Source: an uncultured Clostridia bacterium (lineage in GTDB: Bacteria > Bacillota > Peptococcia > Peptococcales > Peptococcaceae). From it: DNA of 64,000 bases. Where the stretch lies: positions 1 through 64,000 of the forward strand of contig CALXUG010000009.1 in NCBI GenBank assembly GCA_944391625.1. The letters are read 5' to 3'. Under the pieces are notes generated by a model. It did no database searches, was not told where the DNA came from, and saw nothing but the letters and a program-made list of their open reading frames with translations. Below are positions 7,668 through 18,768 of this stretch, piece by piece. A program made the position numbers and the translations under genes. Positions within the stretch are counted from its first letter, which is position 1. Each line of letters opens with the position of its first letter.

Positions 7668-8888
7668 TCAATCATAAAACCCGCGGATTGGCTGGCCGGA
7701 ATGCACCATCCTCCACCACGCTCCGATGCTGATGGCCGAAGTCAAGGCAATCATGAAACCAATGGCTACAATCATATTGGAGAACGACCATGATGAGATC
7801 AGCATCCCAAAGCTGCCGAACAGATTATAACACATATTCATTACCGATGACGCCGTTCCTACATCCTTCTCCTGCTCTAAAGTCAGGTTGGTAAAATAAG
7901 GCCGCAAGATATTGGTAAACAGATAAAATAAAAAAATCATCAGACAAAACAGATAAGGCTGTAACTGCCCCACTGTCATAACGCCAATACCGCCCAAAAG
8001 ACTGATTCCCAGACAAGCATAAATTAACGTGTTCTTGTTGCTGTTCTGGAAAAAGCGAATATACAAAAATGGACCAGCCATAGACAACAACGCACAAACT
8101 GCATAATAATAGCTGTATACCTGCTCCGAACAGGCAAATTGATTGACATAGATATAAGATGATAATGTGATATACATAAAAAACGGAATATTCAAAACTC
8201 CATAAATCATAATAATCCACATAAACACCTTATTTTTCATGGCAACAAAAATCTGACCAAAGGACTGAAAAGCACTGCCTTGCAATCGCCCTTCCGGCTC
8301 CAGACTTTCTTCATATAACCAGGTTAACAACAATCCGATCATACCAAAGAAAAACAATACGAAAAAGATGCCGCGCCAATCAGTAATTAACAACAGCCAG
8401 CCACCAATGACCGGTGCCAAAATGGGACCAAATCCAGAAAACGTCTGCACCAGTGCTAATACCGTTTCCCTTGTTTTGCCCGAAAAACAATCCTTGATAA
8501 TTGCCATCGAGATAGCTGTTACGCTGGCCGCTCCAATCCCCTGTAAAATTCGGCTGGCAATAAGCATATACACATTCCAGGAAATCATACAGGCAAAACT
8601 GGCAATACAATATAATAAGTAACCATATAACAATGGTTTCTTGCGGCCGTATTTGTCACTGAGCGGCCCCCAAATCAACATTCCTACAGCATAAAAAATA
8701 AAAAAACAAGTCACTGACATTTTGATAATCGAATCGGCTGCCTGTAAATGCTCACCCATAGTAGGTAGTGCTGGCAAATACATATCGGTGGATAATGGAA
8801 TAAACATATCCATCAGTACAATAAAAAACAGCATTCCTTTCAAACCAAGTCGTTTTTGCGGTTTTTCTAAACGAATCCTTTCTGACAT
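7668..8888 (-). CDS. Bcr/CflA-family MFS drug exporter
   Basis: This 406-residue, 12-helix major facilitator protein carries the family hallmark DMYLPALP near residue 36 and the MFS loop motif GPLSDKYGRKKPL between helices 2 and 3. Members export drugs and small metabolites by proton antiport across the cytoplasmic membrane. The ATG at 8888 follows AAGGAAGGGG. Upstream are a perfect tandem 17-mer (8918-8951), a roughly 400-bp region with no intact gene, and a leftward promoter at 9353-9420 carrying the LysR-type operator shared with the assT and DASS genes. It may therefore belong to that regulon, exporting a product or toxic aromatic; the substrate is not deducible. Confidence 0.85.
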   Translation of the reverse strand: MSERIRLEKPQKRLGLKGMLFFIVLMDMFIPLSTDMYLPALPTMGEHLQAADSIIKMSVTCFFIFYAVGMLIWGPLSDKYGRKKPLLYGYLLYCIASFACMISWNVYMLIASRILQGIGAASVTAISMAIIKDCFSGKTRETVLALVQTFSGFGPILAPVIGGWLLLITDWRGIFFVLFFFGMIGLLLTWLYEESLEPEGRLQGSAFQSFGQIFVAMKNKVFMWIIMIYGVLNIPFFMYITLSSYIYVNQFACSEQVYSYYYAVCALLSMAGPFLYIRFFQNSNKNTLIYACLGISLLGGIGVMTVGQLQPYLFCLMIFLFYLFTNILRPYFTNLTLEQEKDVGTASSVMNMCYNLFGSFGMLISSWSFSNMIVAIGFMIALTSAISIGAWWRMVHSGQPIRGFYD

Positions 8889-9352: not shown

Positions 9353-9420
9353 ATTATACCGATTATTTTTTATGCTGAACAATCTGAATATTCTCATAAG
9401 CATATAAGAAATAACTTATA
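9353..9420 (-). promoter_or_regulatory. Leftward promoter with LysR-type operator (site A)
   Basis: The dyad TATAAG-N6-CTTATA (9403-9420) lies exactly 44 bp from TATAAT on the minus strand (9358-9353), putting the dyad centre near -65, the usual LysR recognition position. It points towards the MFS gene at 7668-8888. The same geometry recurs at three other promoters in the island. Confidence 0.75.
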
Positions 9421-9553
9421 CCCAGCAGGAATCACAAAAAAGATGTCGAATTTCTAAAAATACTGAAGGATTAACCAATGCGTCTATTCATATAACGGAA
9501 AACAAGTGATTTTATAAAAAATACAGTAACATCATTTAGAGAGGATTTTTATT

Positions 9554-10510
9554 ATGCGATTGACACAAGTCCGACAAATATTAGAAATTGAAAAATGCAC
9601 CTCTATTTCTCAGGCTGCGCGCAATCTGTTTGTTTCCCAACCAGCGCTTAGTGCAGTATTGAATGAATTTGAAGCAGAAGTAGGCGTACAGCTTTTTACA
9701 CGCACCAATTCTGGTATTTATCCCACAGAGGATGGCGTGGAAATTTTAACAGCAATGAAAAATATCATGAAGGAAGTCACTTTTATTGAAAATTATGCTG
9801 CGCAAGTAGAAACATTAACTGGCACCATCACCATGGTTCTGGGACCGTCTCACGATTTTCTCAAATCAGAGATTGTATTTCGTTTCCGTAGCTTGTTTCC
9901 TAACGCATCTTTAAAATTTTTGCAAGAAGACAGCAATAATATTCATACGAAAATTTCCAGAGGATTTCTAGATTTTGCCCTTATTTCTCTTGATTTGGAC
10001 TCTGCTGTTTCTAATTCCACTGACACCTTGCAAAAGTTGAACACAGCAATTATCCCTTTAAATACTTGCCATCCTTATGCAGTGCTGTCCTCCATACATC
10101 CTCTTTGTCAACTGCATACCATCCATTTATCTGATGTGTGTAGTGAACAGCTATTTTTAGGAGAACAATATCATTTAGAAGATTTGCTGCAAGTAACGAC
10201 TTTCAGCAAAATGCCCTTAGTAAAATTGGATTGGACTACCGTACAGAGCCTATTGGATCAAAATTTTGGCATTTTCTTGGACACATCCCCTCTAACCTTA
10301 GCCCAATATCAAGATTTATTGCCGCCATCTTATCAGGTACGGCCATTTGTGTTCAATGGTGTAGCACAAACAGCACTGAAAACCGAATGGCCAGCCTATT
10401 TTATGCACAAAAAAGAATCACATAATAAATTGTACCAATGGTTCCAAAAAGAAATTCTGCAAATTTTGCAATCTCATCAGCTTGTTTTACAGGCAACACA
10501 TGAATCATAA
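9554..10510 (+). CDS. LysR-family transcriptional regulator (copy 1)
   Basis: This 318-residue protein has the N-terminal winged helix-turn-helix (residues 1-60, with SISQAARNLFVSQPALSAVL) and a C-terminal effector-binding domain. The N-terminal 80 residues are nearly the same as those of the regulator at 16236, so the two are paralogues. LysR proteins usually activate neighbouring genes on binding a small-molecule inducer and repress themselves. The ATG at 9554 follows AGAGAGGA. Operator site A lies upstream and site B between this gene and the DASS transporter downstream. The co-inducer is unknown. Confidence 0.93.
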   Translation: MRLTQVRQILEIEKCTSISQAARNLFVSQPALSAVLNEFEAEVGVQLFTRTNSGIYPTEDGVEILTAMKNIMKEVTFIENYAAQVETLTGTITMVLGPSHDFLKSEIVFRFRSLFPNASLKFLQEDSNNIHTKISRGFLDFALISLDLDSAVSNSTDTLQKLNTAIIPLNTCHPYAVLSSIHPLCQLHTIHLSDVCSEQLFLGEQYHLEDLLQVTTFSKMPLVKLDWTTVQSLLDQNFGIFLDTSPLTLAQYQDLLPPSYQVRPFVFNGVAQTALKTEWPAYFMHKKESHNKLYQWFQKEILQILQSHQLVLQATHES

Positions 10511-10522
10511 AACTAAAAAAGT

Positions 10523-10571
10523 AAGAAGGATACCGCTATAAGCAAAAACTTATAACTGTATCCTTCTTTTT
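10523..10571 (+). terminator. Terminator of lysR copy 1, containing operator site B
   Basis: AAGAAGGATAC (10523-10533) pairs with GTATCCTTCTT (10558-10568), followed by TTTTTATA. The top of the hairpin is the dyad TATAAG-N6-CTTATA (10537-10554), so one sequence serves as RNA terminator and DNA operator. Confidence 0.8.
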
Positions 10572-10604
10572 ATATTAGTTAAAAAATACATCATTTGTTA
10601 TAAT
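10537..10604 (+). promoter_or_regulatory. LysR-regulated promoter of DASS transporter 1 (site B)
   Basis: The dyad at 10537-10554 lies 44 bp upstream of TATAAT at 10599-10604, within GTTATAATAA, a 10-mer also present at the DASS 2 promoter. There is no good -35 box, as expected for an activator-dependent promoter. Confidence 0.8.
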
Positions 10605-10680
10605 AAAATCAATCTTTTTGGTTCGCATATGTTACATTAGTTTTATTAATTTTGTTTTTCGTTTTAGGAGGAATATCTTT

Positions 10681-12075
10681 ATGACAAATAAAATCAGCGC
10701 CAAAAATGCACTGCAGTGGATCATCTCTATCGGTATGCCTTTACTTATTTTACTCATCCCTGTAAATGAAACCTTCACTGCACAAATGCGTCTTTATTTA
10801 ATGCTCACATTAATTGGTATTTGTTTTTTTGCCTTTGGCAACGTAAAGCAAACTGTGGTATCTTTTGCTTTACCATGGGCTTATGTGTTAACCGGCGTGA
10901 CTACAGCAGATGTTGTATTTAGTCCCTGGGCTACTACCACCATCTGGATGTTTGTCGGTTCATTTTTCTTAATCAATGCCCTAACTCGCTGCGGTTTGTT
11001 GAACCGGATTGCTTACAAAACAATTGTTATCTTTGGCGGCACTTACCATGGCACTTTGCTGGGCTTAACCATCATTGGTATTATCATAGGTCTGGTTACC
11101 GGCGGCTGCGGCGCTGTACCAATGTTAGCCTTAGCCATGGGAATTTGCAAAGCATTAAATCTGGAAAAATTCTCAAAAGAAGCTACTGGTATTTTTCTGG
11201 TAGCCGCACTGGGCGGTTGTATTCCTGGTTATGTATTTTATAATGCAACTACCATTCTGATGATTAACATCGGCAGTTCTGTAGGTGCGCCAGGCACAAT
11301 TGGCTGGTTTGAACATTTCTTTTATGGACTTCCTGTATTACTGTACTTTTTTCTTTCCGTTTTGTTGGTTGCTTTTTTGTTTCCAGCTTCTAAAAAGACA
11401 AACGCTGCCGAAAACAGAATTCACTTTTCCGAACAACTGCGTACTTTGGGACCTATGCGTCCAACTGAAATAAAAGCAGTTATTATTATTGGCCTCATGC
11501 TGCTCTTTATGATGACTGCCACTATCACCAATATCGATGCCTTCTACGGGTTTATTATCTTCCCCTTATTGCTTTATTTGCCGGGAATTAACGTAGGAAC
11601 CGAGGATGATTTAAAGGCCATGGATTTTGGTTTTGTTCTGTTCGTAGCAGCCTGTCTGGGTATCGGCATGACTGGCAGCGCTTTGGGCTTTGGTGAACTG
11701 GTAGCCAATACCATTCTGCCATTGCTGCAAGATCAAGGGGTTTGGGTATTCAGCGGTGTTGTATGGTTGGTTTGTTTTGTAATGAATTTCCTACTGACTC
11801 CGTTTGCAATCTTTGCTTCTTTTTCTGCACCATTGGCTACACTGTCTATGCAGCTGGGAATTCATCCCTTTGCCACATACTTTTTCATGATAATCGGCGC
11901 TGACCAACTCATATTCCCATACGAGTGCGCCTTTTATCTAATTTTCTTCTCTTATGGTGTCATCCGGATGAAAGACTTTGTAAAGTATTTTTCCGCCAAA
12001 ATACTACTGAGCCTAGTTGCACTCTTTTTGATTGCATTACCATTCTACAAACTAATCGGATATCTGTATCTGTAA
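10681..12075 (+). CDS. DASS-family (SLC13-like) anion:sodium symporter 1
   Basis: This 464-residue protein has 11-12 hydrophobic segments and aligns by eye with the DASS transporter at 17386 throughout, sharing KALNLEKFSKE, GIFLVAA and the C-terminal (D)QLIFPYE and MKDFVKYF motifs. The family imports dicarboxylates, sulfate or related anions using Na+. The ATG at 10681 follows TAGGAGGA; a longer frame from 10618 lacks a ribosome binding site. Its promoter carries the shared LysR operator. Substrate is not readable; succinate-type dicarboxylates or aryl/inorganic sulfate are both possible given assT nearby. Confidence 0.85.
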   Translation: MTNKISAKNALQWIISIGMPLLILLIPVNETFTAQMRLYLMLTLIGICFFAFGNVKQTVVSFALPWAYVLTGVTTADVVFSPWATTTIWMFVGSFFLINALTRCGLLNRIAYKTIVIFGGTYHGTLLGLTIIGIIIGLVTGGCGAVPMLALAMGICKALNLEKFSKEATGIFLVAALGGCIPGYVFYNATTILMINIGSSVGAPGTIGWFEHFFYGLPVLLYFFLSVLLVAFLFPASKKTNAAENRIHFSEQLRTLGPMRPTEIKAVIIIGLMLLFMMTATITNIDAFYGFIIFPLLLYLPGINVGTEDDLKAMDFGFVLFVAACLGIGMTGSALGFGELVANTILPLLQDQGVWVFSGVVWLVCFVMNFLLTPFAIFASFSAPLATLSMQLGIHPFATYFFMIIGADQLIFPYECAFYLIFFSYGVIRMKDFVKYFSAKILLSLVALFLIALPFYKLIGYLYL

Positions 12076-12128
12076 TCAAACAATTAATCATTCTAACTTT
12101 TGAGAATGAGCCCCCCAATCAGATTTTT

Positions 12129-12160
12129 AGCAAGGCGGTTTTGATCGCCTTGCTATTTTT
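12129..12160 (+). terminator. Terminator of DASS transporter 1
   Basis: AGCAAGGCG (12129-12137) pairs with CGCCTTGCT (12146-12154) and is followed by ATTTTT. Confidence 0.85.
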
Positions 12161-12230
12161 ATACCGCTAAGAGGTTACGCCGATACCTCAGAACGTATTC
12201 GTTTCATTTTCTTTAATCCCTTTGTTATTT

Positions 12231-12644
12231 TTACTTCAACTGTTCCTGACATTCACTGCATTCTCTGTCGTGTATAGATATAATGCCACCACACTTCAAA
12301 CAAGTGTACATTTCTTTCTGTTTTTCCATAAACTTTATACAGCCATATTGACGGACAAATTCGCTATTTTTTATAAGGCTTGTCTGATATCGTTTATTGT
12401 AACTTTTCTCAAGATTTCTTACCAGCTTACATGGAAAATCCAAGCATTCAAAACAATAGGATAACCCTTTATTCCGAACACAATCTTTTAACTTACATTT
12501 GCGGCAGTGTTCCGGTTTTCCCAATTCACCATACAAACAACCAGCGCATGGTTTTTGGTGATAGCAATGTTTATAACAAACCAAGCAGTTCATCCCGCAA
12601 GGAGCAAACATTGCTGTATCAATATCGTCTTTTGGCATTTTCAT
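12231..12644 (-). CDS. DUF3795-type Cys-rich protein
   Basis: This 137-residue protein is rich in Cys pairs: CGMNCLVC, CAGC, CRKCKLKDC, CFECLDFPC and a C-terminal CxxC...CxxC zinc-ribbon-like end. This matches the DUF3795 group, whose function is unknown to me but which probably binds zinc or an iron-sulfur centre. GGTGGAG lies upstream of the ATG at 12644. It runs convergently towards the DASS 1 gene and stands alone; nothing links it to the LysR regulon. Confidence 0.7.
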   Translation of the reverse strand: MKMPKDDIDTAMFAPCGMNCLVCYKHCYHQKPCAGCLYGELGKPEHCRKCKLKDCVRNKGLSYCFECLDFPCKLVRNLEKSYNKRYQTSLIKNSEFVRQYGCIKFMEKQKEMYTCLKCGGIISIHDRECSECQEQLK

Positions 12645-12796
12645 TGTTTATCTCCACCTACCATCATAATCCTATTGCTTTTATTCTAACACAATTCAGA
12701 ATATGTGAAAACAAACTATTATTCATCCATAAGCATATTCCTTTATCCAGAGAAATAACTTCTATTGCCTTGACGAAACTGTTTGGTACGATAAGC

Positions 12797-12829
12797 AAAA
12801 GAGGCCGACACTGTTACAGTATCGACCTC
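12797..12829 (-). terminator. Terminator of the assT-MFS operon
   Basis: Reading leftward, GGAGGTCGATACTG pairs with CAGTGTCGGCCTC across a short loop (12801-12829, with two mismatches) and is followed by TTTTGCTT. It lies about 100 bp past the MFS stop. Confidence 0.65.
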
Positions 12830-12930
12830 CCTGCTGCTATCTTTTCAAATATCTTGTTTTGACAACTGCTATTCTGCGCAAACCGCAACAGCAATTATAT
12901 TTAAAGTTCCTGCTCAACTACCTTGTCCAA

Positions 12931-14130
12931 TTATTTGGCAAGCAAACGCGGTGCTGTTTCTTTCAACAGCAAAATGCCTACTGTAGCAAACAATGGCAAA
13001 AGCAGCAACAAATGCATAACCTGGGTTAAATCCAAAATTTGAATCAGGATTCCGGCCAAAACCGGCGCGATCATACCGCCAACGAATTCACCAGCAGCCG
13101 GTGAAAAAGAAGTGGCTGTTGCCAATAAAGAGCTGGGCACTGATTCACTGGGTACAACAGAATTCAAAATTGCCATAGCGCCGGATAAAAAATAGGATGC
13201 AGCAGCAATAGAGATTGTCAGACCAACTGGCGGCAAATCCAGCAGCATAAATGCCGCAAAGCACAATGTTCCTGCCAAACTTGAAATCAAAGCCGTTGTC
13301 TTTCGACCAATATAGTCCGATATGATTGGCGCTGTAAATTCTCCCAAAAAGCCCCCGATACCAAAACCGGCAAAAATTGCTCCTGCGGTAATGGTAGAAT
13401 AGGCATGATGTTCTATCAGATACAAAATTGTAAATGCTGCGGTTGTAAAATACCACATCATAATTAAGCAAGCCAATACTGTACTGATAACCACATTGCG
13501 ATAAGCAAACAATTCTGTAAAACGATGGGTATTTTCTTCCTTTGGACGTACTTCCAAATTACGGGGAATCCGCCGCCCAAATAAAAACAGGATTATCACC
13601 TCTACTACCAGCAGCGTTCCGATAATCATAAAACAGCTGCGCCACCCCAATATGGTACCCAGGCGTGTAAATACCAATGAGCCAATTGCTGAGCCAATCA
13701 GCGTAAAACTGGACATGGCCACACCGTAGAATAAACCTCTTTTTTGCGGATCGCTCTGCTCTGCCAAAAAGGACAGGCTGGTAGAACAGATAGATCCGCA
13801 GCCAAACCCTGCGACTGCAATTACAATATAAAAAAGCACGATATTTTGCAGCAATGCCAAGCCAAATAACGCAATAGCGCCAATTGCCAAGCAAGGCATC
13901 ATAACTTGAATCTGCCCGTATTTATCGCCTTTTTTTCCGCAGATAATAATAGATACGGTCCAGAAAAAGGCAATGGTTGCAGTTAAGTAACCATTATGTT
14001 CCGTACCCAACGAATACTCTATTGAGAAAAACGGGAATAAAAAGGCAACACAATTGTGTACCAAGCCGCTGATCCCCCATGCCATAGTCATTAGGCAAAG
14101 TGCCAGCCATTGATATGGATAGCGTTTCAT
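12931..14130 (-). CDS. MFS transporter linked to aryl-sulfate sulfotransferase
   Basis: This 399-residue, 12-helix major facilitator protein has the loop motif GKKGDKYGQ after helix 2 and a comparable IISDYIGRKTTAL loop in the second half. The start at 14130 (MKRYPYQW) is preferred over the in-frame ATG at 14154 because AGGGGAG is spaced properly only for the later one. The gene begins 30 bp after the assT stop on the same strand, so it is co-transcribed from the assT promoter (site C). It most likely moves the substrate or product of AssT, such as a sulfated or free phenol. This is inference from linkage. Confidence 0.82.
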   Translation of the reverse strand: MKRYPYQWLALCLMTMAWGISGLVHNCVAFLFPFFSIEYSLGTEHNGYLTATIAFFWTVSIIICGKKGDKYGQIQVMMPCLAIGAIALFGLALLQNIVLFYIVIAVAGFGCGSICSTSLSFLAEQSDPQKRGLFYGVAMSSFTLIGSAIGSLVFTRLGTILGWRSCFMIIGTLLVVEVIILFLFGRRIPRNLEVRPKEENTHRFTELFAYRNVVISTVLACLIMMWYFTTAAFTILYLIEHHAYSTITAGAIFAGFGIGGFLGEFTAPIISDYIGRKTTALISSLAGTLCFAAFMLLDLPPVGLTISIAAASYFLSGAMAILNSVVPSESVPSSLLATATSFSPAAGEFVGGMIAPVLAGILIQILDLTQVMHLLLLLPLFATVGILLLKETAPRLLAK

Positions 14131-14160
14131 GCATAATTCTCCCCTCTGTTCCACCGTCTC

Positions 14161-16074
14161 TTATGCTGTGATAACAACACCTGTCTGGTATACCACCGAC
14201 TGTTCTTCTTCTGTAACAAGGATCTGAACAGTGTATTGACCAGTTAATCCGGTTTTATTGATAAAAGTATCCACTTCACGGGTGTCTGCCTTCTGGAAGG
14301 TACCAACACACATGGCCTGGAATTCTTTTTTGGCAGTTTCTACCGGATAACGCAGTATTGTTCCGTCTTCTGCCAGCAACAGAATTTGTACCAGTGTATC
14401 TTCTTCAAAAATCCCCTGTACTGCCACACGGTCAATTTCTTCTTTGATCTGAATTTTATAAGCATCCGGCACCAGTTCTTCTGATTCCGCTGCTTTAATT
14501 TTCATTTTTGTAGTTGGTGTTGCTTTTAAAGAGCCCAGCAGCTCCCCTTTACCCAACTGTAAAGTTTCGTTGGCATAATATAATGGTAATTTTTCGGCAC
14601 GATAACAGTTCGCTGGTACTTGCAGTTCATAAACCAGTTGATCATTCAACAATTCACAGGTGATAGAATTAAATGTGTATTGATGACCATGGTTTGGCAC
14701 CATACATTTTTCTACTGCCAGACCTTCACAGGTAACACCGTCTTCATAGCCAATACCGCCGGAATGCACCATATAGTGGCCTTCTTCATAATATTCTACG
14801 TTACAGATATATGGGGAGAAAAATTCTGCGCCCCGTTCTTTCCCATACTGCCATACCTGTTCAATTTCCATTTTTTCAGTGTCAATTCTGTAGCGTACAC
14901 CGCGGGAGAAGTTGTCTGCATTCAGAATCCGTTTTTCTGGATTTTTGGAACGGAAATGACCGTTATCAAACAGCATAATGTCTCCGTCAGGCAGCACCAC
15001 GCAAGCGTGCTGTTCATACTGCCAATCAAAATTGGTCACATCGCCAACCGGTTTAAAGAAATATTTTTGCATATCTGCCGGCCAGCCTTCCGGATCACCC
15101 AAAATCCAGTTTAATTTACATTTTCCGGTTTCATCTAATTCATAATCAATGTTGATTACCGCATCCTGATGACGGCCGGATAAGATTAAACTGTTGGTGC
15201 GTTTATCGTACCATACTGCATTGTTATGGAACCAGTCGATTTCATCCTGACTGCCGGAGCCGGCAGTTGGATATTGCGGCAGCACATCTTTGTAATCCCA
15301 TTTTCTTAAAATTGCGCCTGTTTCTTTATCCAACAATACCAGAGTATCTTCTACTGTACCGGAACCTGCATCATAGGTTAACATTAAAATGTTGCCGTCT
15401 TCCATGTAAAATTGATCATGATGATAACCGCCAATCGGTCCGCGGTATTCTTTGTAGATTTTTCCACTGAAGGTCATTTCATATAAACCGGTTGTATAAT
15501 AGGGCATTTCTACCAAACGTTCGGTCCCCACCAGCAGATGACCGTTTGGCATCCGTTTCAGATCAAAGTTGAAGTTTACATTGGCGTACCAGCGAATATC
15601 TCCTTTATAGTCGTATCCTACTGGCATAGAGTCCATAGCTGTAGTCAAAAACATGATATTATTACCCATATATTCAGCTGTTGTTTTGATGCTGGTAGCT
15701 TGATGGGCATCGGCAATGGCTGGTTCTGTCTGAATGGTCACAACCTGTTTTTGTCCGGTTGCTGCTGTCACAACAACTTTATTATCATAACCGGCATACA
15801 AACCATAAATCGGTAAAATATGTTCTTTTTCGGCAGGGAAAGTATGGCTGATATTGCCGGCTTCTTCTTTTCCTAATACAGTAACGGTAATTTCTGTAGC
15901 AACTGGTGTGCGGAATAACAGCACTGCCGTTAATGGACAGTAACTATAAGGATTCAATTTTACCAACGGATTCTGCAAAGTATAATTGCCTGCGGCAAAT
16001 TCCTGCAAAAATGCCTGTTCAGCGGCATACTGCTTGTCAATGATATGAGATACATTTTCATATTGAATAGTCAT
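14161..16074 (-). CDS. assT: Aryl-sulfate sulfotransferase (AssT family), apparently cytosolic
   Basis: AssT enzymes transfer the sulfuryl group from an aryl sulfate to another phenol through a sulfo-histidine intermediate, without PAPS. The 637-residue protein shows the beta-propeller Arylsulfotrans pattern and residues matching the known active site of uropathogenic E. coli AssT: YHHD (His218/219), WFHNN (His283, Asn285), SGR (Arg301) and EQH (His356). The 73-residue offset is identical for three of them. There is no signal peptide and no linked dsbA/dsbB-like genes, unlike the periplasmic enterobacterial enzyme. The ATG at 16074 has AGAGG 9 bp upstream; the ATG at 16083 abuts it. It faces lysR copy 2. 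Confidence 0.88.
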   Translation of the reverse strand: MTIQYENVSHIIDKQYAAEQAFLQEFAAGNYTLQNPLVKLNPYSYCPLTAVLLFRTPVATEITVTVLGKEEAGNISHTFPAEKEHILPIYGLYAGYDNKVVVTAATGQKQVVTIQTEPAIADAHQATSIKTTAEYMGNNIMFLTTAMDSMPVGYDYKGDIRWYANVNFNFDLKRMPNGHLLVGTERLVEMPYYTTGLYEMTFSGKIYKEYRGPIGGYHHDQFYMEDGNILMLTYDAGSGTVEDTLVLLDKETGAILRKWDYKDVLPQYPTAGSGSQDEIDWFHNNAVWYDKRTNSLILSGRHQDAVINIDYELDETGKCKLNWILGDPEGWPADMQKYFFKPVGDVTNFDWQYEQHACVVLPDGDIMLFDNGHFRSKNPEKRILNADNFSRGVRYRIDTEKMEIEQVWQYGKERGAEFFSPYICNVEYYEEGHYMVHSGGIGYEDGVTCEGLAVEKCMVPNHGHQYTFNSITCELLNDQLVYELQVPANCYRAEKLPLYYANETLQLGKGELLGSLKATPTTKMKIKAAESEELVPDAYKIQIKEEIDRVAVQGIFEEDTLVQILLLAEDGTILRYPVETAKKEFQAMCVGTFQKADTREVDTFINKTGLTGQYTVQILVTEEEQSVVYQTGVVITA

Positions 16075-16138
16075 AATAAACATCCTCTTTTCTGTTATTG
16101 AAATTTGATTTTATTTGATTTTCATTCCGTTTAAATCC

Positions 16139-16206
16139 ATTGTAACAAAACCTGCTTGATTTTAATAATCTGCATTTACTGATATTGTCATAACGAAATA
16201 CTTATA
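16139..16206 (-). promoter_or_regulatory. assT promoter with degenerate LysR operator (site C)
   Basis: Read leftward, TATAAG-TATTTC-GTTATG (16206-16189) matches the site D dyad at 14 of 18 positions. It lies exactly 44 bp from TACAAT (16144-16139), the same spacing as the other three sites. It lies in the lysR2/assT divergent region. Confidence 0.72.
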
Positions 16207-16213
16207 GTAAACT
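16185..16213 (+). promoter_or_regulatory. Promoter of lysR copy 2
   Basis: TTGTCA (16185-16190), a 17-bp spacer and TAAACT (16208-16213). It overlaps operator site C, which fits autorepression. A TATAGT-AA-ACTATA dyad (16203-16216) overlaps the -10. Confidence 0.5.
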
Positions 16214-16235
16214 ATATACTAAGGAGGGATCGCCG

Positions 16236-17231
16236 ATGCGACTGACACAAATTCAGCAAATTTTAGAGATCGAAAAATGCACATCCATTTCACAGGCCGC
16301 CCGCAATTTATTTATTTCCCAACCTGCCTTGAGCGCTGCATTAAACGAAGTGGAACTGGAAATTGGCGTACAGATTTTTACCCGCACCAAGCAGGGCATT
16401 CGGCCCACCCAGGACGGTCTGCGGATTTTAAATGCCATGAAAAATATTGCCAACGAAATCAATTATATTGAAACTTATTCCGCTCAGCTGGAGGATTTAA
16501 CCGGCTCAGTTACGTTTATGCTGGGCGCTTCTTATGAATTTTTATATTGCGAGTTAATTCAACGGTTCAAAGAAAACTTTCCCAAAGCGAATATTCGTTT
16601 TATCACCACCTTTGAACCAAATGTACAAGATAAAATCTCCAGAGATTTAATTGATTTTGCTATTATGCCTGTCTATATGACAACAGTTCATGGAGATTCT
16701 ATTTATGTTTCCGATGTACAACAGATTGCAGCCAACAAAAATGTCACTATCCAACCTTTAAATTTTTGCCATTCTTATGCAGTCATCAATCGGCAACATA
16801 CATTATGTAAAGAATACGCAGGAGAAACCACCATTGCGTTGTCACGGCTGTTGACCGAACAGTTGATTTTGGGCCGCCAGCACAAAGACGATTATGAATT
16901 GTTTTTAAAACATTGCCCGATGAACAAATTTCCTATTGTTGGTATTGATCGCAGCACCATTCATGAACTATTGGAACGGAATTATGCTATTTTTTTAGAT
17001 GCCACGCCGTTGGATTTACAGCAATACCAACAATATTATCCCCAGTATCAGATCTTTTCCATCCATAATGATATTGCCGGCCTGCCCCTTTCTACATTAG
17101 AATGGGCCACATTTTTTATCTATAAAAAGAACTCTGCCCGCAAACTGCAGCAATTTTATGCCAGAGAGGTTTTGGAACTATTAAAGCAGCATCAATTATT
17201 GAACGAAGATTGGGGAAACGACAAAAATTGA
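16236..17231 (+). CDS. LysR-family transcriptional regulator (copy 2)
   Basis: This 331-residue paralogue of the 9554 regulator has an almost identical helix-turn-helix (SISQAARNLFISQPALSAAL) but a more diverged effector domain, so the two may respond to different inducers while reading the same operator. The ATG at 16236 follows AAGGAGGG. It is divergent from assT and lies upstream of DASS transporter 2, with shared dyads on both sides (sites C and D), the classical LysR arrangement. Confidence 0.94.
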   Translation: MRLTQIQQILEIEKCTSISQAARNLFISQPALSAALNEVELEIGVQIFTRTKQGIRPTQDGLRILNAMKNIANEINYIETYSAQLEDLTGSVTFMLGASYEFLYCELIQRFKENFPKANIRFITTFEPNVQDKISRDLIDFAIMPVYMTTVHGDSIYVSDVQQIAANKNVTIQPLNFCHSYAVINRQHTLCKEYAGETTIALSRLLTEQLILGRQHKDDYELFLKHCPMNKFPIVGIDRSTIHELLERNYAIFLDATPLDLQQYQQYYPQYQIFSIHNDIAGLPLSTLEWATFFIYKKNSARKLQQFYAREVLELLKQHQLLNEDWGNDKN

Positions 17232-17241
17232 CACCAAAGCA

Positions 17242-17291
17242 AAAAGAGGATATAAATATAAGTATTTTCTTATATCAATATCCTCTTTTTT
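17242..17291 (+). terminator. Terminator of lysR copy 2, containing operator site D
   Basis: AAAAGAGGATAT (17242-17253) pairs over 12 bp with ATATCCTCTTTT (17278-17289), then TT. The hairpin top is TATAAG-N6-CTTATA, the same design as after lysR copy 1. Confidence 0.8.
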
Positions 17292-17324
17292 GTATTTCCC
17301 ATTATTTTATTGTATCGTTATAAT
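17257..17324 (+). promoter_or_regulatory. LysR-regulated promoter of DASS transporter 2 (site D)
   Basis: Dyad TATAAG-TATTTT-CTTATA at 17257-17274, a 44-bp gap, then TATAAT at 17319-17324 within GTTATAATAA. No recognisable -35 box. Confidence 0.8.
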
Positions 17325-17385: not shown

Positions 17386-18768
17386 ATGTCCACAAAACTA
17401 AGTCCTAAGATGATTCTCGCTTGGGTATTATCTTTAGGCGTACCGCTTCTCATTTATTTTATTCCAACAACGGAACTGTTTACACCAACCATGCGTACCT
17501 TTTTGGTGTTGAGCGTCATGGCCATTTTGATGATCGCTTTTGAAAATGTGCCTACCGCAGCGGTAACTTTTTTGCTCCCATGTTTGTATATTGTATTCGG
17601 TGTTGCAGCACCAGATGTAGCCTGGTCCAGCTGGACCAAACCAACCTTTTGGATGGTAGTAGGCGCTCTGTTGATGGTAAATGTATTAGAAACCAGCGGC
17701 CTGTTGCAGCGTATTTCCTTTAGCATTTTAAAACTCACCGGCGGCAGTTATGTCAGCATCTTGATTGGAATCGCACTTATTGGTACTGTTTTAAATATTA
17801 TTTTATTCGGAAACGCCTATGTACTGTTAGCCGGTTTGGCTTATGGATTATGTAAAGCATTAAATCTTGAAAAATTCTCAAAAGAAGGCACAGGTATCTT
17901 TTTGGTTGCTGCCATTGCCGGTATTATTCCTACCGGTTTTGCATATGGCGCCAATCTGTTTATGATCGAGGCCTATTGGTCCAGCGTCATTGAAACCCAC
18001 ATTGGCTGGTCGGAATTTACCTTTTTCATGATTCCGTACATGATTTATTTTGCCCTGGCTGTTGTGTTGGTAATTCTAATGTATCGTTCTAAACGGGATT
18101 TAGACAGCAAAGCTTATGCTGCTGCTGAACTGGAAAAGCTGGGAAAAATGACTGCCAATGAAAAGAAAGCCATTGCCTGGTTGGTATTGATGTTTAGCTA
18201 CGTTATTTATACCGGCTTTACAGGCGGAGATTGTACTTTTGCCTTTATCTTAATTCCTGGGCTCATGCTCTTACCGCTGGTTGGCTGTGGTTCTGAAGAA
18301 AATGTAAAAAATTTGGATCTAACTTTCATCCTGTTTGTAGCCAGCTGTATGACCATCGGCTTTGTTGCTGGCGGCCTGGGCTTTGGCGAATTGGTCAGCG
18401 CATTGTCTGCACCGGTGGTAGAAAGCTCAACGCCAACTATGCTGGTCATCATTCTCTATATCGTCAACGTGGTATTAAACTTCCTGCTGACACCTATGGC
18501 AATTATGGCAGGGTTCACAGCCACATTCACACAAATTGCGCTTGATTTGGGGCTGAATCCGCTGGTTGTATATGCTGTTGAATTCTTTGGGCAGGACCAG
18601 ATTCTGTTCCCATATGAATATGCGTTGTATCTGCTGTATTTCTCCTTTGGCTTTATCAGCATGAAGGAATTTATCAAATATTTTGGTGCCAAATTGGTCT
18701 TAGGCTTTATCACACTAGTTGCCATTGCCCTGCCGTTCTGGAAATTCACCGGCGTTTTCTTTGGCTAA
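17386..18768 (+). CDS. DASS-family (SLC13-like) anion:sodium symporter 2
   Basis: This 460-residue, multi-helix membrane protein is paralogous to the 10681 transporter (shared KALNLEKFSKE, GLGFGELV and FLLTPMAI-type motifs, and a C-terminal DQILFPYEYALY). AAGGAGG lies upstream of the ATG. It is expected to import a dicarboxylate, sulfate or organic anion with Na+. Duplicated lysR-DASS pairs bracketing assT suggest the two transporters supply related substrates to one pathway, each tuned by its own regulator. Confidence 0.85.
   Translation: MSTKLSPKMILAWVLSLGVPLLIYFIPTTELFTPTMRTFLVLSVMAILMIAFENVPTAAVTFLLPCLYIVFGVAAPDVAWSSWTKPTFWMVVGALLMVNVLETSGLLQRISFSILKLTGGSYVSILIGIALIGTVLNIILFGNAYVLLAGLAYGLCKALNLEKFSKEGTGIFLVAAIAGIIPTGFAYGANLFMIEAYWSSVIETHIGWSEFTFFMIPYMIYFALAVVLVILMYRSKRDLDSKAYAAAELEKLGKMTANEKKAIAWLVLMFSYVIYTGFTGGDCTFAFILIPGLMLLPLVGCGSEENVKNLDLTFILFVASCMTIGFVAGGLGFGELVSALSAPVVESSTPTMLVIILYIVNVVLNFLLTPMAIMAGFTATFTQIALDLGLNPLVVYAVEFFGQDQILFPYEYALYLLYFSFGFISMKEFIKYFGAKLVLGFITLVAIALPFWKFTGVFFG

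Follow-up and report, generated by a model that had tools for sequence, protein, structure and literature searches.

Introduction

LysR-type transcriptional regulators (LTTRs) often recognise DNA near position -65 of their targets, and besides the textbook T-N11-A core, T-N10-A and T-N9-A variants are also named (PMC8407307). At citB of Bacillus, the dyad of CcpC is made of ATAA and TTAT boxes and centred at -66, and CcpC represses via a half-dyad at -27 to -33 (PMC8514465). In Sutterella wadsworthensis, a lysR gene lies near 7 of the 17 arylsulfate sulfotransferase (asst) genes (PMC10932419). The locus considered here belongs to an uncultured Clostridia bacterium of the Peptococcaceae (assembly GCA_944391625.1, contig CALXUG010000009.1, positions 1 to 64,000; this 64,000-nt stretch as a whole is called the window). 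It comprises two lysR paralogues (lysR1, lysR2) together with genes for two DASS-type transporters (dass1, dass2), an arylsulfate sulfotransferase (assT) with an adjoining MFS transporter gene (mfs), and a Bcr/CflA-family transporter (bcr). Four copies of the dyad TATAAG-N6-CTTATA, sites A to D, lie among these genes, each at the same distance from a -10 hexamer. This arrangement is best read as bcr, dass1, assT-mfs and dass2 forming a LysR regulon, and we put at roughly two in three (0.68) the probability that one LysR-type system uses A to D as -65 operators, with B and D doubling as terminators of the lysR genes.

Four dyads at a fixed distance from -10 hexamers

The initial annotation had placed four dyads 44 bp from four -10 hexamers, and both the coordinates and the spacing proved right, with three perfect dyads and a degenerate fourth, C (Table 1). 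In all four cases the first base of the hexamer stands 53 bp from the dyad centre and 44 bp from the dyad edge, which agrees with the claim that the dyads are centred near -65 of the predicted start sites. The promoter-distal half TATAAG is intact at 4/4 sites, including C (minus strand), where it is the promoter-proximal half that is degenerate, and a TAT stands 4 nt beyond each dyad. The oriented element can thus be written TATAAG-N6-(C/G)TTAT(A/G)-N4-TAT, followed by the -10 hexamer with 44 bp from the dyad. Besides, sites C and D match at 22 of 26 nt on opposite strands (inverted repeat I2).

That four equal spacings exceed chance, as had been asserted, was borne out by dinucleotide shuffling of the flanks, in which all distances from 20 to 80 bp, to the left or to the right of a dyad, were admitted: the observed common -10 match (23 of 24 bases) was reached by 0 of 5000 shuffles (mean 15.8, maximum 20). 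Dyads with at most two mismatches number 10 in the window for 3.7 expected, a count reached by 0 of 100 shuffles, and of the four places where the perfect dyad occurs in the 2.97-Mb assembly, three are in this window. As for the composite of dyad, TAT and -10, a pattern derived from sites A-D themselves, zero-mismatch matches in the genome are confined to A-D; elsewhere none has fewer than two mismatches, one has two and ten have three, the reversed control giving 3 + 3 matches at up to three mismatches. The fourth perfect dyad (C14:9697-9714, corresponding to L027 2698-2715) lies between minus-strand frames of 317 and 266 aa and has no -10 hexamer at 44 bp. Regarding -35 elements, the promoter scan passed one at D alone (TTCCCA, 4/6), and the absence of a passing one at A, B and C is as expected for activator-dependent promoters. 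In viral contigs, 22 matches to the window motif were counted, and Rfam returned two weak matches, both far below gathering scores.

In the mechanism proposed here, A-D would be operators of LysR1 and/or LysR2, with A serving bcr, B dass1, C assT-mfs and D dass2. A LysR dimer would anchor on TATAAG-N6-CTTATA at about -65 and, by extension of the general LTTR model (PMC8407307), the second dimer of the LysR tetramer would contact the promoter-proximal side, at the conserved TAT. Both LysRs might bind and activate at all four sites, and a transcript initiated at promoter A might extend to bcr.

Hairpins downstream of lysR1 and lysR2

The initial annotation was silent on the fact that B and D lie within hairpins followed by T-runs after the lysR stop codons, B starting 27 bases past the end of lysR1 (last base 10510) and D 26 bases past the end of lysR2 (last base 17231). 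To the dyads these hairpins add longer outer arms, alike at both sites (GGATA/TATCC), and the T-run, and none of 200 shuffles gave an equally good fold. Comparison of the two sites shows unchanged half-sites amid divergent loops and largely divergent flanks. The hairpins at B and D are probably intrinsic terminators of lysR1 and lysR2, respectively. In the lysR transcript, the inverted repeat would form a hairpin at which transcription stops; as DNA, the same repeat would anchor LysR for activation of the next gene, namely dass1 or dass2.

At A and C, no hairpin with a T-run is predicted on either strand (z -0.37 and -0.63 for A, 0.95 and 0.54 for C), and since these unfolded sites nonetheless have the half-site, the TAT and the -10 distance, termination by itself cannot account for all four. 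A control set of 1093 further hairpin-plus-T-run elements, loosely defined, from 464 kb of the same genome includes one with TATAAT at 51-53.5 bp from the centre; B and D both have a 6/6 hexamer match at 53 bp from the hairpin centre.

Sister lysR loci in other genomes

Full-length matches to LysR1 or LysR2 were found in none of 60 relatives, nor in 21 genomes of the order, 46 of the class and 398 of the phylum (overlapping genome sets, thresholds of 1e-30 to 1e-40, one search scoring no more than five candidates in each genome), and two scans of genome contigs confirmed no relative. Matches restricted to the N-terminal part were obtained in G003, G011 and G001, from which sister lysR genes were recognised, and a profile built from these three sisters together with LysR1 and LysR2 added G008. 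The resulting sister loci (L045, L046, L047 and L066) represent four genomes and three genera. A match in G002 is cut by a contig end, the sister LysR of L047 searched over the 398 phylum genomes retrieved G010 only, and the order lysR-hairpin-asst was not seen for the remoter LysRs of L067-L069.

Past each of the four sister lysR genes there is a T-run hairpin (z -6.4, -6.8, -8.1 and -7.0), and the next gene past it is in every case an asst-like frame of 473-504 aa. For these frames the Pfam scan covered G003, G008 and G011, and in all three it confirmed the ASST and the subsequent CitMHS-type transporter; the G001 contig stops behind asst. Mean identity among the sister hairpins is 91 and 95% in the arms, 31% in the loop, 37% in the left flank and 56% in the right flank. 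From the hairpin centre to a -10-like hexamer, the distance is 52 bp in G001 (TACTAT), 51.5 bp in G003 (TACAAT), 52 bp in G011 (TATAAT) and 52 bp in G008 (TAGAAT), and the common offset, with 20 of 24 matching bases, was reached by 5 of 3000 shuffles. As the sister loci are of common ancestry and some of their hexamers were chosen with knowledge of the alignment, their spacing counts as support and not as proof.

The half-site is CCTATC/GATAGG in the sisters and TATAAG/CTTATA in the window, and both groups of hairpins have, in direct reading, the skeleton ATA(C/T)-N2/3-TAT-N11/12-ATA-N2/3-(G/A)TAT. The symmetric core of the sisters is T-N11-A in L046 and T-N12-A in the other three loci. CCTATC-N9/10-GATAGG occurs once in each of the four sister genomes, at the lysR hairpin, and in none of six other genomes searched; the sister hairpin has no match in viral contigs. 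An extra CCTATC-N10-GATAGG in G012, which lies in a short hairpin with a T-tail ahead of a small, apparently rpsF-like gene, was set aside as unrelated and due to chance. That a lysR terminator hairpin would serve in duplex form as a -65 operator for the gene that follows, and would have been kept in this role in two LysR groups with diverged half-sites, is a proposal whose odds we place at about even, with a slight lean in its favour.

assT neighbourhoods in congeners

In 6/6 congeners with a close assT orthologue (at least 70%; G001-G006), a bcr homologue (47-50%) adjoins assT, which fits bcr as a member of the regulon, and in four of these six the homologue stands behind a second ASST gene (the Pfam check of this gene covers G001). 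The congener neighbourhood also fits one physiological unit, split in two in the window genome. Four congeners have assT opposite a different LysR (28-32% identical), in a region with no copy of the window dyad at one mismatch or fewer, so that LysR2 control of assT seems peculiar to the lineage of the window. By eye, the divergent assT/lysR regions of congeners share another conserved block, approximately AATRGGGGGGTATAAGGATT..GAAATTGGCAAAA, which may be where the different LysR of these genomes binds. In L036 and L052 (G009:C77), an assT orthologue 76% identical has one in-frame TGA and is read as two frames.

Alternative explanations

A number of observations weigh against a LysR regulon operating through A-D. 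The dyad, expected by the initial annotation to be conserved upstream of orthologues, was found with at most one mismatch at 0 of 61 loci of other genomes (68 loci scanned, some overlapping, 7 of them from the genome of the window); this test is weak because no other searched genome gave a full-length match to the LysR pair at the thresholds applied and, in four congeners, the LysR opposite assT is a different one. Taken alone, the dyad is not over-represented genome-wide (6 places vs. 18 for the reversed control at one mismatch or fewer), so the signal resides in clustering and spacing and not in number, and C is unexceptional by mismatch count, six other window sites having one or two mismatches. 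The promoter scan lists D only (TTCCCA-17-TATAAT, 10/12) and promoter-like sites are not in excess (34 vs. 40.5 in shuffles). In direct reading, the symmetric core of A, B and D is T-N12-A and not the textbook one. Neither the B nor the D hairpin is among the 15 sites of a strict terminator scan based on an unbroken stem, at least three G-C pairs and a short loop; their stems are A+T-rich and interrupted by an internal loop, and so depart from the G+C-rich consensus. Of the 1093 control hairpins, 43 have a hexamer matching at least five of six bases at 51-53.5 bp. In the sister loci, two of the hexamers (TACTAT 4/6, TAGAAT 5/6) are weak or were chosen with knowledge of the alignment, and the conserved arms could also reflect a conserved terminator. 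Lastly, an old duplication of a lysR unit may have produced B and D as copies of one another, and likewise A and C, in which case the four sites are not fully independent.

One alternative takes B and D as lysR terminators and nothing else, alike through a duplicated lysR-terminator-dass unit, with A and C due to chance or unrelated. Strong T-run hairpins directly past both lysR stop codons, the paralogy of lysR1 with lysR2 (49% identity) and of dass1 with dass2 (40%), and the likeness of the outer arms are all in its favour, but it leaves unexplained the properties of the hairpin-less A and C, where the -10 match given 44 bp is rare in shuffles (0.0012 for A, 0.024 for C), as well as half-sites unchanged between diverged loops and flanks, and we consider it unlikely. 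A mobile element, with lysR between inverted repeats, was also considered and set aside, as the constant outward -10 distance fits operators better. Even if A-D are operators, two small regulons could be at stake, LysR1 reading A and B and LysR2 reading C and D, and this division we regard as a serious if somewhat less than even possibility. A separate pair of sites flanks each lysR, C and D, unlike A and B, have TATTT within the spacer and CAATATC beyond the dyad, and the effector domains differ (89 of 227 residues identical from residue 90 on), so the ligands may differ too; on the other hand, the TATAAG half-site is identical at 4/4 sites and the DNA-binding domains are identical at 49 of 62 residues. 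These domains, called near-identical in the initial annotation, are better described as similar, with 12 of 16 identities over residues 28-43. Recognition of the dyads by a regulator other than LysR1 or LysR2 is conceivable in a genome with many regulators (54 LysR matches), the more so with a symmetric spacing of N12 and not N11, but the composite site is found only beside lysR1 and lysR2, the dyad position fits LTTRs, and the sister loci combine a near-equal distance with a different half-site, as if site and regulator had changed together; such a regulator is thus quite improbable. As regards the regulon first proposed, what stands is the spacing, the unique composite, the divergent arrangement of lysR2 and assT and a sister distance within 1.5 bp, and what it missed is the putative terminator role of B and D.

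If the reading of A-D as LysR operators with terminators at B and D is true, terminator and operator would be combined in one inverted repeat, tying the end of the regulator transcript to the activation of the target, and the evolution of both would be constrained by the shared repeat. LysR bound at the terminator could hinder or promote termination of the transcript that encodes it, and would then autoregulate from the 3' end. The four sites would also define a small testable regulon joining LysR, DASS and arylsulfate sulfotransferase genes. More generally, some caution is called for, as a dyad next to a regulator gene may be a terminator and a hairpin presumed to be a plain terminator may be an operator.

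Genes and regulators of the locus

Table 1. Sites, predicted hairpins, promoter hexamers and genes of the locus, with the congener regions that share a conserved block
Feature	Position	Strand	Remark
bcr, Bcr/CflA-family MFS transporter	7668..8888	-	NCBIfam efflux_Bcr_CflA 214.7 bits (cut-off 200.9); MFS_1
-10 of promoter A	9353..9358	-	TATAAT
Site A	9403..9420	-	Perfect TATAAG-N6-CTTATA
lysR1	9554..10510	+	Pfam HTH_1 55.8 bits (cut-off 26.6); LysR_substrate 24.3 bits (cut-off 28)
Hairpin with T-rich tail after lysR1	10522..10575	+	Minimum free energy -22.8 kcal/mol, z -6.5; inverted repeat I1; site B is the apical stem
Site B	10537..10554	+	Perfect TATAAG-N6-CTTATA
-10 of promoter B	10599..10604	+	TATAAT
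dass1, DASS-type transporter	10675..12075	+	Pfam Na_sulph_symp and CitMHS above cut-offs
mfs, MFS transporter	12931..14154	-	Pfam MFS_1; 6 bp downstream of assT
assT, arylsulfate sulfotransferase	14161..16083	-	Pfam Arylsulfotrans 345.7 bits and its Ig-like N-terminal domain
-10 of promoter C	16139..16144	-	TACAAT
Site C	16189..16206	-	2 mismatches in 12 specified bases
lysR2	16236..17231	+	Pfam HTH_1 54 bits (cut-off 26.6); AlphaFold2 and Foldseek
Hairpin with T-run after lysR2	17239..17295	+	Minimum free energy -22.4 kcal/mol, z -8.8; inverted repeat I4; site D is the apical stem
Site D	17257..17274	+	Perfect TATAAG-N6-CTTATA
-10 of promoter D	17319..17324	+	TATAAT; -35-like TTCCCA at 17 bp
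dass2, DASS-type transporter	17386..18768	+	Pfam Na_sulph_symp and CitMHS above cut-offs
Divergent assT/lysR regions of congeners sharing a conserved block	L048 5500-5859; L049 4700-5029; L050 4697-5045; L051 2330-2640		

dass1 is located 3' of site B and dass2 3' of site D, while lysR2 and assT-mfs are divergent, site C facing the latter. Site A points leftward, and bcr is its proposed target, across a leader of about 460 nt devoid of intervening frames of at least 90 aa. DASS genes are numerous, with E values up to 1e-50 for 8 matches to DASS2 in the genome of the window and for 22 in G009, the best match in another genome being just 37% identical, so that no orthologue was available for comparison. 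By eye, the start of AssT is without an obvious hydrophobic signal sequence, on which ground AssT may be cytoplasmic; enterobacterial AssT is periplasmic. Between dass1 and mfs lies a small cysteine-rich frame of 137 aa (window 12231-12644, minus strand), for which there was no NCBIfam match.

Both regulators have the LysR-type N-terminal helix-turn-helix (Table 1). The LysR_substrate domain of Pfam was not found in LysR2 and scored below cut-off in LysR1. The AlphaFold2 model of LysR2 (mean predicted local distance difference test 84.8) gave as best Foldseek matches the full-length LTTRs CcmR, OxyR, CbnR and BenM (E about 1e-19), in alignments spanning its length and with a TM-score of 0.43-0.47 for the query; its predicted fold thus marks LysR2 as a probable LTTR, whose effector domain would be one that escapes the Pfam model. 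By sequence, CcpC is its second-best match in the PDB (E 1.7e-8).

Comparison with known systems

Compared with the general LTTR model as outlined in PMC8407307, the locus has in common a dyad near -65, a divergent layout at C and a further contact region proposed on the promoter side. It differs from this outline by its T-N12-A core in place of T-N11-A, by target genes some of which are found 3' of lysR and co-oriented with it, and by two sites of four positioned inside the probable terminator of the regulator gene itself. For a LysR operator within a terminator, keyword searches of open-access papers and listings found no precedent. CcpC resembles the present case as an LTTR of the Bacillota with ATAA and TTAT boxes in a dyad near -65, but the accessible part of its description (PMC8514465) says nothing of a terminator, in contrast to the overlap proposed for B and D. 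In addition, the NCBIfam CcpC model scores 46.0 bits for LysR1 and 54.1 bits for LysR2, so far under the cut-off of 400 that neither is a CcpC. In the available account of the asst-lysR pairs of Sutterella wadsworthensis (PMC10932419), operator, spacing and terminator overlap are not described, and DASS has 0 mentions in its main text.

Unlike the window, the genomes of the sister loci have no known free-standing copy of the core comparable to A or C, the single copy being that at the lysR hairpin. Like the window, the sister loci exhibit a T-run hairpin after lysR and a -10-like hexamer, here 51.5-52 bp from the hairpin centre; the next gene is asst, with a DASS-like gene behind it in three of the four loci.

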